In this document: piece by piece, positions 10,518-47,829 of the stretch
Layout: each line of letters starts with the position of its first letter
Position numbering within the stretch: position 1 is the first letter of the stretch
NCBI RefSeq assembly: GCF_008326305.1
Contig: NZ_BIXY01000004.1
Location: 62,001 to 126,000 of the forward strand
DNA length: 64,000 bases
Reading direction: 5' to 3'
From: Dictyobacter arantiisoli
Lineage (GTDB): Bacteria; Chloroflexota; Ktedonobacteria; Ktedonobacterales; Ktedonobacteraceae
Notes under the pieces: generated by a model
The model's input: only the letters and a program-made list of their open reading frames with translations
What the model was told of the DNA's origin: nothing
Databases searched by the model: none
Program-made: the position numbers and the translations under genes

Positions 10518-11248
10518 TGTTTGAGACATTATTAGAATTAACTAATGCCAGTCATGATTCTAGAGCTGGATCTGCTCTCCGGATCGCATCTACGTTTTAT
10601 TCGGTATGATTAGACCTTTTAATAAAGTGTTTGATTCCCATGGCCTCCATGGTCTCTGTGCATGAGTTTTCGCACCTGCTGGCAGGCGCGCCGGCGCCTG
10701 CCAGCAGGTGAGCAGCAAGATCCCGATGGTGATGGGAATCAAACACTTTGTATAAGCTTTCAGGTAAGGAAATTCGTTCTCAAATTTTGTATTTTTGGAT
10801 ATAATAGTAATAAAATCGTTTTGAAATAGAAAAGCAACAAATTATCATTGGGATAGCTGGAGTAAGCAAACAAAGAAATTGCGGGGCGGAATTGGTATGA
10901 TGAAATATTGATGATTTGAAAATCATATGGTATCTTCACACATTAAGGGAAAAGATACCATAGCTCTCTTGTAGCTATTTATCTCTAGCTGAGCAATGAG
11001 CTGTGCCCACCCGCCTGTGTGCCAGTCGGTCGGATGAGTAGCTGAATACGTTATTAGCCACATTGTACTAGTAAATAGGCCGCTAGTGATAAATAACGTC
11101 CATAAAGCGAATACTATATAGAGCATGCTGTAGATACTTAGCGTAGAATGGAGCTCAGGCAGCCAGTAGCTCCCAAATCTTTTCCTGCATAAGTTGAAAA
11201 TTGTGGCGTGCAATGCAGGTATGGACCCGGAACAGAGGAGGGTGCGGC
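10518..11248. other. Intergenic region with a nested palindrome
   Basis: No supported gene lies in this stretch. It holds the 126-bp nested palindrome described separately, then AT-rich DNA (10760-10930), then the leader of the large regulator with a good AGAGGAGG site just before 11249. A 96-residue minus-strand frame here has a hydrophobic stretch but no ribosome-binding site. Confidence 0.5.
10624..10749. repeat. Nested palindromic element
   Basis: Outer perfect 17-bp arms at 10624-10640 (AAAGTGTTTGATTCCCA) and 10733-10749 enclose a second, GC-rich perfect 17-bp inverted repeat at 10673-10689 and 10694-10710 (CACCTGCTGGCAGGCGC) with a 4-base loop. It follows the YjbQ stop by about 100 bases. 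It may be a small non-autonomous element or a transcription-end structure. It has no T-run. Confidence 0.8.
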
Positions 11249-42864: not shown

Positions 42865-43579
42865 ATGGAGCAAGAGCGCATACAAACAGCTGAACAGTGG
42901 GCCGTCCTGACCTATGGGGCAGCGCTGCTGGCTGATAGACGACGACGACACACAGCCCGGGCCATTCAGGTCGCCACGGCCATGGCTCGGTTTCCGATGG
43001 AGTCATTGCCCGCTCAAATGGGGAGTCAGGCCGGCACCAAAGCAGCGTATCGGCTCCTGGAGAGCCCGAAGGTGACCTATGAACGGCTCATCCAGCCGCA
43101 TGTGCAGCACACACGCATGCAGATGCAGCACCAGAAACGCGTCCTCCTCATTCAAGATATGACCGAGGTGGACTATCAACAGCATCGCGCCACCACGGGA
43201 TTGGGCCTCATTGGACAATGGCGATCATCAGGGCTATTTGCTGCAAACAGTCTTAGCCGTCTCCCCAACCACCCGGCAGGTGTCCGGTATCGCCGCGCAA
43301 CATCCCTTTTTGCGCCAGCCTGCCCCGGAGGGAGAAACGACTCATCAACGCGAACGACGGAAACAAAAAGAGTCGCAGGTGTGGCAAGAACAAGCGCAGA
43401 GCATCGGGATGGCGCCTGCCGACTGCGAATATATCCATGTCGGGGATCGAGGCAGCGATATCTTTGCGTTCATGGAGGTCTGTCAAGCGTTGGGATGTGG
43501 ATTTGAACTACGAGTCAAACACAATCGCCGCATGGATCTGTTGGTGGATCAAGGGGACACCCCAATACAGCTCAAATAA
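42865..43579 (+). pseudogene. Broken IS4/Tn5-type transposase
   Basis: The N-terminal half is in one frame (42865 to about 43214) and continues in the next frame (to 43579), so a one-base shift near 43210-43220 splits it. The first part has the Tn5-like DNA-binding start (FPMESLPAQMGSQAGTKAAY, YRLLE) and the first catalytic Asp in IQDMTEVDY. The second part has NGDHQGYLLQ and the second Asp in VGDRGSDIF. The C-terminal third with the catalytic Glu is gone. The TAA stop is supplied by the family A repeat that begins there. The gene cannot make an active enzyme. Confidence 0.88.
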
Positions 43580-43806
43580 CGAGAATCATGATGGAAAACG
43601 TAGGCAGCGCACGCAGCGTAGCGCAGGTCGATGCACTGTAACGCGTACGACCAACGCGCCCGTAGGTCATTCCCACCCCACTCCAACATCCCTCTCAGGG
43701 AGCAGTGCAGAGCGTTGGGGTGAGAGAGTAGTACGAGCCCGGAAAGACAGAGATCTACAAATTCCTCTTATTTTAGTGGTATCGCCCATAAAGTGCGGCG
43801 GCTACG
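43563..43806. repeat. Repeat family A, locus 5
   Basis: Left end: ATACAGCTCAAATAACGAG then AATCATGATGG and AAAACGTAGGC. Right end: AATTCCTCTTATTTTAGTGG then TATCGCCCATAAAG and GGCTACG (43806), the inverted counterpart. It truncates the transposase on its left and abuts the TAA stop of the lipoprotein gene (43807) on its right. Confidence 0.75.
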
Positions 43807-44427
43807 TTAATCAGGATCTTTGCTTGTATCGGCTACCCAGTTTTTGGGTATGGCCTGGTAGGCGGCTACCCAGTTGGTTGCCATTTGGATTTGTGCGTCT
43901 TTCAAGCTCATCTGGTCGTTGCATACCAGTGTATAGAGGTAGCGTTCCAGGCGATCTTTTTCGTGGTAGCCAGGTAATGGCGTAGCAGGCTGTGGCCAGA
44001 GATTAGAGATGTCGTTGGCTCCTCCCGATCCCAGACTGATGAAATGATCGATCTGATACTGACCAGGTGAACGTTGGGTGATGCCATATTCGGCGTAGAC
44101 GCGATTTTTGGTGCTGACCGATACATTCCGTACCGTGCGTGTATAGCCCGGTACGCAGACTGTATCTGCAGTGGCCCCAGGCATAATATTCCCTGGTGTA
44201 CAGGCTGGATCTGGTAGTGATCCTTGAATATGGCAGTGACTGGTTTTGGTACGATGGCCCCAAAGCGGTGCTATGGCTTGCGAAGAATGCAAGATGCTCG
44301 CTGTATCGGCTGAGTTTATGGCTTTTGTAGTTGAATGCTTTGTCGTTTGTGTTGTCGCGCCAGTACAGCCACTGAGTAGCAGGATACTCAATAGCCATAG
44401 GATCAACCACTTCCCTTTTTTCTCCAT
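43807..44427 (-). CDS. Lipoprotein with HNH-nuclease-like motif
   Basis: A 206-residue exported lipoprotein: basic start, hydrophobic core and lipobox LSGC at about residue 21. After a Thr/Ser-rich linker, the domain has paired Cys residues (SHCHIQGSLPDPACTPG, VCVPGYT) and the block QIDHFISLGSGGANDISNLW with PGYHEKDRLE. This pattern, with DH and the downstream Asn and His, recalls HNH/His-Me endonucleases and several secreted nucleases. Whether it cuts DNA is unproven. AAAGGAGG lies upstream of the ATG. It follows the DUF1963 gene by 58 bases on the same strand, so they may form an operon. Confidence 0.7.
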   Translation of the reverse strand: MEKKGKWLILWLLSILLLSGCTGATTQTTKHSTTKAINSADTASILHSSQAIAPLWGHRTKTSHCHIQGSLPDPACTPGNIMPGATADTVCVPGYTRTVRNVSVSTKNRVYAEYGITQRSPGQYQIDHFISLGSGGANDISNLWPQPATPLPGYHEKDRLERYLYTLVCNDQMSLKDAQIQMATNWVAAYQAIPKNWVADTSKDPD

Positions 44428-46485: not shown

Positions 46486-46548
46486 AGGGATTTTTGCGCT
46501 GGGCTCTTTAGCATATTTCAAACTCGCATGGTCTTTGCTATCGTGGCC

Positions 46549-46831
46549 CATGACTTTTCGCACCGAGGTGCTCAAAAAGTTTTATTAAGTGTTGCAGAAA
46601 AAGTTCTTCGAACTTTTTCTGCAACACTTAATAAAAATGTACAGGTGTTGACACTACTGCAACACTTAATAAAAATGTACAGGTGTTGACACTACTGCAA
46701 CACTTAATAAAAATGTACAGGTGTTGACACTACTGCATGTTTTTATTATATAGTGTATAAAGGGTTCGAAGAACCCTTTATACACTATATAATAAAAATT
46801 TTTTTTGAGCACCTCGGTGCGAAAAGTCATG
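46549..46831. mobile_element. Palindromic MITE-like element with two giant hairpins and 38-bp tandem repeats
   Basis: Perfect 30-bp terminal inverted repeats lie at 46549-46578 (CATGACTTTTCG, then CACCGAGGTGC and CTCAAAAA) and 46802-46831. Inside is a hairpin with perfect 27-bp arms (46580-46606 and 46610-46636, loop TTC). Three exact 38-bp direct repeats follow (46621-46734, each starting GCAACACTTAATAAA). Then comes a second hairpin with perfect 28-bp arms (46740-46767 and 46771-46798, loop GAA). CATG at both edges may be a target duplication. No protein is encoded. It lies between convergent genes. Confidence 0.85.
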
Positions 46832-46869
46832 CGCAAAGATTGCGCAGACAAGAGCTGTCTGATATGTGC

Positions 46870-47829
46870 TTAGATGTGCGGCAGTACACTGGTCGCGAAA
46901 GCGCGCAAACCCTCCACATCTTCGAAATCAAACCATTGGAGCATCAATTCTTCGACACCAGCCTGTGCATAGGTCTGAATCTGTTTGATGACGTGTTTGG
47001 CGGTACCAATAATAGCTGTAGTGTTGGCGGCCAGATGGTCGACAAGTTCGTCGTTGGAGAGTCCATGGAAATCAGGATTCAGGCGGTAAACGTTGAGCTT
47101 TTGCGCGAGATCCGTATCGTCATGGGCAAAGATGATCTGATGCATCATGGTGCGTTTCACATCACCGGGCTGACGACCAGCCGCTATTAATAGTTCATCC
47201 AGGCGCACAGAATGCGCTTTGAAATCGGCTGGCGTGAGGAAGATTCCATTCCAGATATCGGCATAGCGTGCGGTCAGGGGCAGGGTGCGTTTGAGACCGT
47301 TGCCGCCAATCAGGATGCGAGGCCCACCAGCACGTTGTGGGCGCGGTAAGAGGATAGCGTCGCGTAACTGAAAGAATTGGCCTTCAAAGGTTACGGGCTC
47401 ATCGCTACGCAATAAGCGTGTCACAACTTCCAATCCTTCTTCAAAGCGCGCCATACGCGTTTTGATATCGCCCAGTTCATGTCCGAAGTTATGGTGTTCC
47501 CGCTCCTGCCAGCCAGCTCCCAATCCCAGTATCATGCGACCGCCGCTTAAATCATCAATAGATGCGGCCTGACGTGCCAGCAAGGTTGGTTCACGGAAAG
47601 AGATCGGCGCCACCAGCGGACCAAAATGGATCTGCTTTGTCTGATCGGCCAGATAGGCTAGAGAGACGATCATTTCTAGCGAGTCGAGATCAGGTGGATT
47701 AGGATTCGTAAAATGGTCGGAACGGAACAGGCCAGCGAAGCCCAGCTGATCCACTTCGGCGGCCAAACGTTTCCAATAGGGCCAGTTTAAACCGTTCTGG
47801 CCCTCGATCATAAGCGAAACTTCTACCAT
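46870..47829 (-). CDS. LLM-class F420-dependent oxidoreductase
   Basis: A 319-residue oxidoreductase with the luciferase-like TIM-barrel fold. The start VEVSLMIEGQNGLNWPYW, then GLFRSDHF, LADQTKQIHFGPLV, and the strongly conserved GGRMILGLGAGWQEREH and PRILIGGNGLKRTLPLTA, place it in the F420-dependent branch rather than among FMN luciferases. Cofactor choice is inferred from these motifs. GAGG lies 11 bases before the ATG. It is monocistronic and converges on the GT2 gene across the palindromic element. The substrate is unknown. Confidence 0.9.
   Translation of the reverse strand: MVEVSLMIEGQNGLNWPYWKRLAAEVDQLGFAGLFRSDHFTNPNPPDLDSLEMIVSLAYLADQTKQIHFGPLVAPISFREPTLLARQAASIDDLSGGRMILGLGAGWQEREHHNFGHELGDIKTRMARFEEGLEVVTRLLRSDEPVTFEGQFFQLRDAILLPRPQRAGGPRILIGGNGLKRTLPLTARYADIWNGIFLTPADFKAHSVRLDELLIAAGRQPGDVKRTMMHQIIFAHDDTDLAQKLNVYRLNPDFHGLSNDELVDHLAANTTAIIGTAKHVIKQIQTYAQAGVEELMLQWFDFEDVEGLRAFATSVLPHI

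Follow-up and report, generated by a model that had tools for sequence, protein, structure and literature searches.

Several families of short repeats in bacterial genomes resemble the element described here. BrickBuilt of Porphyromonas gingivalis, an IS5-family MITE, is non-coding, has IS5-family terminal inverted repeats (TIRs) in common with resident insertion sequences (ISs) and can harbor a tandem-repeat array; the accessible part of its description reports no internal hairpin of the kind presented below (PMC4596501). NEMIS/Correia, ERIC, RUP and other bacterial MITEs are 100–200 bp long, mostly intergenic, bounded by TIRs and strongly folding, and they are described as having TA termini and, as of the review, mostly no matching IS (PMC2229807). 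REP/BIME sequences with RAYT transposases are interspersed palindromes, known in Chloroflexi too; REPs are 20–40 bp long, carry a GTAG or CGTC tag and have IS200/IS605-type partners (PMC3733652). A further body of work concerns mutation at hairpins. Template switching at inverted repeats homogenizes arms and inverts spacers, including ttc/gaa (PMC8604942), converts imperfect to perfect inverted repeats at quasipalindromes of E. coli (PMC7202029), and, in rRNA, yields compensatory changes in one step as well as inverted loops; since the loop is important to the RNA, it seldom changes there (PMC8794818).

A 64-kb window of the Dictyobacter arantiisoli genome (64,000 nucleotides, the whole stretch of DNA that was analysed) contains a palindromic feature that shares traits with each of these systems. 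The family to which it belongs is short, non-coding and multicopy, and on sequence grounds it is an IS5-type MITE. Like BrickBuilt, it shares IS5-family TIRs with a resident IS, and the copy in the window includes tandem repeats; it differs in its 3-bp, TNA-like target duplication, in a TIR that ends in TCCCAT, and in a perfect internal hairpin of 27–38 bp that occurs with both loop orientations. Relative to NEMIS/Correia, ERIC, RUP and similar MITEs, it has a matching IS5-type IS end, a 3-bp duplication and a giant hairpin that forms a separate inner module. Identity with REP/RAYT repeats was rejected: the unit here is 203 bp long, with TIRs, a target duplication of 3 bp and a probable DDE IS5 partner, and is not a 20–40-bp tagged palindrome. 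The hairpins repeat the arm homogenization, instantaneous double changes and loop inversion known from template switching, which has been studied in rRNA genes, yeast genes and reporters (PMC8794818, PMC8604942, PMC7202029), whereas here more than 100 copies with fully mixed loops are dispersed through one genome. This is a new MITE family that follows a known route, that of an IS5-type mobile element; its unusual part is the internal hairpin, together with the within-genome record of templated upkeep. In a search of the openly available literature, we found neither feature described for MITEs and no paper on Ktedonobacter/Dictyobacter MITEs. The family is apparently an undescribed, very abundant IS5-type MITE of Dictyobacter.

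Much of the anatomy given in a preliminary description of the feature was borne out. An inverted-repeat scan located both of its giant hairpins. Hairpin 1 (46580–46636, + strand) pairs perfect 27-bp arms (46580–46606 and 46610–46636) around a 3-nt loop, TTC, and hairpin 2 (46740–46798, – strand) pairs perfect 28-bp arms (46740–46767 and 46771–46798), unlike those of hairpin 1, around a loop that reads GAA on the + strand. The reported complementarity of the two tips exists because the halves of the element are inverted relative to each other: read along its own half-unit, each tip is TTC. Between the hairpins are the three exact 38-bp direct repeats (46619–46732, + strand), starting at 46619, 46657 and 46695 and hence spaced by 38. 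The 38-bp unit does resemble the right arm of hairpin 1; the resemblance covers the first 18 bases of the unit, not 16, and in the first copy this stretch is the arm itself. Also present are the enclosing 30-bp inverted repeat and its small GCACC-GA-GGTGC palindromes. The latter form a short conserved hairpin at 46560–46571 (+ strand), with the core motif CGCACCNNNGGTGCTCAAA, and another at 46809–46820 (– strand), which was located by sequence and by a search with the core motif. Folded as single-stranded DNA, 46549–46831 reaches –102.9 kcal/mol, compared to –25.7 ± 3.8 kcal/mol in shuffles (z = –20.4). Perfect short-loop inverted repeats with ≥12-bp arms occur just four times in the window, and three of these belong to the MITE family; five Markov-simulated windows contained none of such size.

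Searching the genome with 46540–46840 yielded 96 matches, confirming that the element is multicopy. Nearly all fall within the outermost ~100 bases at either end of the query (bases 1–98 and 201–301), and none of these matches covers the 38-bp repeat region except that of the element itself. The core motif occurs 254 times at ≤2 mismatches (control, 3) and 222 times at ≤1 (control, 0) in 7.2 Mb. The motif is common in some sister species of the genus (G003, 55; G004, 20; G002, 3; G001, 1), other genera show the background level, and exact matches were found in the named species Dictyobacter kobayashii and D. aurantiacus. Searches of plasmids, phages and IMG/VR returned zero matches.

The normal unit of the family is non-coding, has a modal length of 203 bp and possesses a single giant hairpin; two hairpins are therefore not the design of the element, as had been supposed, and the pair in the window reflects a fusion of two halves. 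The TIRs read (G/C)ANAGTGTnnGnnTCCCAT, in the forms (G/C)ANAGTGTTTGATTCCCAT or GTGTCAGCCTCCC-type variants. From left to right, the unit comprises a TIR, a linker, CATGAGTTTTCGCACCnnnGGTGCTCAAA with the short hairpin, the giant hairpin, a GC hairpin GCAGGCGCnnnnGCGCCTGC, AGCAGGTGAGCAGCAAGATCCCG and the right TIR. When the TIR was used to set the ends, the 3-mers on the two sides were identical in 38 of 76 units, compared to a mean of 7.9 when pairings were shuffled; shifting the ends by 1–6 bases left 0–2 identical pairs. The family's target duplications are thus 3 bp long and mostly TNA, and such an exact duplication of the flank is a transposon signature. The earlier suggestion of a non-autonomous transposon was correct in kind, given the multiple copies, the TIRs, the 3-bp duplication and an IS, probably of the IS5 family, that shares the TIR, and mistaken in the termini, the CATG duplication and the number of hairpins.

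Other members and neighbors of the family vary in form. A second copy in the window (10623–10750, + strand) retains intact TIRs but has lost the giant hairpin; in its place is a perfect 17-bp GC palindrome, CACCTGCTGGCAGGCGC-GCCG-GCGCCTGCCAGCAGGTG. The left arm of this palindrome looks copied from the right, as would result from a template switch to the CACCTGC within the short hairpin. Five loci of G003 (L056, L065, L074, L076 and L078) display a related form that shares the short hairpin and has perfect hairpins of 32–38 bp and no recognizable TIR; the ends of this form are different, in several cases with ...GCGCCTTCGGCC... upstream and ...GCGGCCGCGNNGCGGACGCC downstream. Another interspersed repeat, also palindromic, runs from GCTCGACTTTGTACATTTTTAGGCTTTTGAGC... 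to ...GTACAAAGTCGAGC. It lies in the flanks of L004, L012, L027, L037, L043, L187 and others and often directly adjoins the MITEs, a few of which may have used its end as their insertion site.

Alignment to the left halves of family members, extending to the MITE's first base, moves the ends of the window element from 46549 and 46831, where they had been placed, to 46511 and 46869. Both halves align without gaps, except that the loop of the short hairpin differs (2 nt vs. 3 nt). The segment at 46511–46548 (+ strand) is a decayed left TIR plus linker, with an alignment score of 15 against a shuffled maximum of 11 (0/200). Its equivalent in the second half (46832–46869, – strand) scored 8, a value that 6 of 200 shuffles equaled; it is weak alone and continuous with the conserved part. 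The 30-bp inverted repeat previously taken as terminal is not the TIR of the family, and CATG was ruled out as a target duplication: it is conserved internal sequence, present in nearly every copy. The trinucleotide TTA, of the length that the family duplicates, lies directly outside the left end (46508–46510) and again at 46870–46872, where it is the TAA stop codon of a minus-strand gene (46870–47829). This match could be a chance occurrence, at 1 in 64 or likelier given the preference for TNA.

The feature would accordingly be a decayed, diverged head-to-head fusion of two MITE left halves (46511–46869), flanked by TTA. We give this reading a probability of about 80%, a joint figure that also includes mobilization in trans and the upkeep of the hairpins by template switching. 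Because hairpins 1 and 2 differ in arm sequence, two different copies were probably joined; these would have lain in opposite orientations and fused into two left halves. Slippage would later have triplicated a 38-bp segment that starts in the arm of hairpin 1, and the repeat is probably such a local product. A comparable head-to-head pair is found at L092 (790–978). In the sister species G003 and G004, the two genes that flank the element are neighbors without it. A search for empty sites with a single CATG had been proposed; the element-free orthologous gene pair exists, but CATG is internal to the element, and the flanks are too diverged for a single TTA to be read. Between this gene pair, at L250 and L251, each sister species has its own unrelated long hairpin (in G003, GAGCATAGTGTGCGGCCACTG-CACA-CAGTGGCCGCACACTATGCTC). 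Elsewhere in the window, 42865–43985 contains frame-shifted ORFs that by eye resemble a broken transposase. No host function is needed to explain the window element.

Which transposase could move such elements? The IS5 transposases that PF13340 detects in the genome were discarded as partners since they lack the MITE TIR, and the partner was therefore traced from contig ends. At least six of these bear GATAGTGTTTGATTCCCATC or a one-base variant, followed by a common sequence; they are the ends of a resident IS. The body of this IS is absent from the draft assembly, whose contigs break ~125 bp inside it, and the full transposase is not seen. The visible end encodes RLSRDHEGLPESSEAFIRIASCHRLLTKLAPAYPS, a 35-residue C-terminus that matches IS5-family transposases, its nearest counterparts within the genus being 65–77% identical; the peptide alone had no direct match in Pfam or NCBIfam. 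A complete homologous IS is present in G004. It is 1,075 bp long, with the TIR GAATGTGTCTGACTCCCATC, TTA duplications and two overlapping ORFs that match NCBIfam IS5 (NF033580, the first ORF above cut-off), PF13340 and PF01609, and its TIR class and TTA duplication correspond to those of the MITE family. As to a full element with a transposase and the same ends, proposed as a target in the preliminary description, the IS end with the shared TIR is resident, and the complete homologue is in G004. From these common ends, it would be the resident IS5-family transposase or a close relative that moves the MITE in trans.

The giant hairpins of the family have nearly perfect arms of very different sequences. 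In the D. arantiisoli genome, 88 of 102 long hairpins have no mismatch, and there are 18 mismatches in 2,869 pairs. Perfect arms had been taken to imply recent spread; yet this proportion holds despite the differing arm sequences, and the window copy itself has decayed TIRs. The 85 hairpins with arms of ≥27 bp comprise 55 different arms. Between copies, arms differ at a mean of 5.72 of 27 positions (21%), compared to 0.094 (0.35%) within a copy. In a set of 32 distinct hairpins, chosen by hand and omitting most of the mismatched ones, 21 of 27 pairs covary, with a score of 0.465 vs. 0.129 in shuffles. This set has 148 cells in which both sides have changed; among all 864 cells, one is a one-sided standard pair and one is unpaired. 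Loops occur in both orientations (GAA 22, TTC 21; ATA 6, TAT 6; ACA 9, TGT 5), and copy pairs with identical inner 22-bp arms have the same loop in 65 instances and an inverted loop in 56. One pair of copies, with no difference in either arm or at 108 positions outside, is distinguished solely by the loop, TAT vs. ATA. Changes private to one copy within a sample of 67 of the ~250 units lie on both arms in 10 cases and on one arm in 6; at the rate of private changes seen outside the hairpin (0.0069 per site), ~0.03 independent matched doubles are expected. In the 53 copies with no more than one private outside change, there were 6 both-arm and 3 one-arm changes, with 0.001 expected.

Apparently, the giant hairpin stays perfectly paired by replication copying arm onto arm. 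A replicating polymerase would switch template inside the hairpin, so that one arm is copied from the other; this copying would restore perfect pairing and spread a new mutation to both arms, and a switch across strands would invert the loop. Both-arm changes without intermediates and loop inversion, the marks by which template switching is recognized, are both found in the MITE hairpins, and the family matches all of the published signatures, with no bias in loop orientation. Selection filters mutations and cannot supply doubles at the observed rate; a templated event can. The same module may even be in continual turnover by template switching, outpacing point mutation elsewhere in the element. 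We consider the chances of this stronger statement to be evenly balanced; it is raised because most of the sampled private arm mutations are on both arms and loop orientation is fully randomized.

The covariation just described could instead be read as the work of selection on a transcribed RNA (a small RNA, an RNase III target or an mRNA-stability element), with the doubles being ordinary compensatory mutations, and transcripts of the NEMIS MITE have indeed been proposed as RNase III substrates (PMC2229807). However, G–U intermediates are almost completely missing from the 864 cells, and among the mismatches overall G–T (10) is not clearly in excess over A–C (5). The random loop orientation also argues against selection for RNA structure: in rRNA, GAAA loops outnumber UUUC loops 99-fold (PMC8794818), whereas both orientations are equally frequent here. 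At the element, no Rfam family scored above cut-off, with sub-threshold matches to unrelated families, mainly microRNA precursors; the tRNAs of the neighboring locus alone passed. We therefore regard RNA selection as improbable, and the structured RNA suggested previously finds no support. Somewhat less unlikely, though still doubtful as the main cause, is ectopic gene conversion among dispersed copies, which would yield perfect arms and mixed loops because a self-complementary hairpin pairs either way round. Near-identical outsides with different hairpins would fit it (L197 and L032 have 3 outside and 5 arm differences), as would a hybrid hairpin at L176 with mismatches clustered on one side; against it, the 10 compensated changes are private to one sampled copy, and their donor would have to be unsampled. 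That hybrid, from position 509 of L176 onward, has matching proximal arms, a distal left arm of the GCTGTAAATGTGC type and a distal right arm of the GGTGCAGAAAAGGTGC type, with 3 clustered mismatches, and is possibly an unfinished conversion. Given L176 and the weak correlation between arm and outside distances (r = 0.24, blurred in part by indels), conversion among copies may well be acting too and could contribute part of the signal.

Two other explanations concern the window copy and the data. Its position between convergent genes, the T8 after hairpin 2 on the + strand, the C and T5 after hairpin 1 on the – strand, and the unrelated hairpins that both sister species have at this site all speak for a bidirectional transcription terminator selected in place. 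Intrinsic terminators consist of a GC-rich stem followed by a T tract, whereas family hairpins begin with T tracts and the consensus ends in an A tract, the reverse order; moreover, a terminator scan does not report the giant hairpins. Among the scorable copies (crude ORF calls), 12 are in tandem, 9 in divergent and 8 in convergent positions, and 8 lie inside predicted ORFs. These mixed contexts do not point to any one role at gene ends, and we deem selection as a terminator unlikely, while the outer T tracts and convergent position of this copy would allow a co-opted role. The 38-bp repeats contain a sigma-70-like match no better than expected by chance. That the hairpins are assembly artefacts is barely credible: the source is a 256-contig draft that breaks at the IS, but the hairpins, at 57–59 nt, are shorter than the apparent contig overlap of 127 nt, and the independently sequenced G003 has the same kind of perfect hairpins (31 of 38), contrary to the artefact scenario of the preliminary description.

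Stem covariation is usually taken to prove that an RNA or DNA structure is under selection. In this mobile element, covariation is near-perfect over 21 of 27 pairs and the loops are randomized, a combination that fits a mutation process and not selection; the family is a warning for the discovery of RNA structures from repeats. In comparative work, this Dictyobacter MITE family needs masking. Its copies also provide a natural data set, ready to use, in which arm conversion and loop inversion can be measured. If the hairpin module is indeed in continual turnover, the palindrome of a DNA module would stay perfect with no selection on its structure, and MITEs would act as general natural recorders of template switching at the replication fork.
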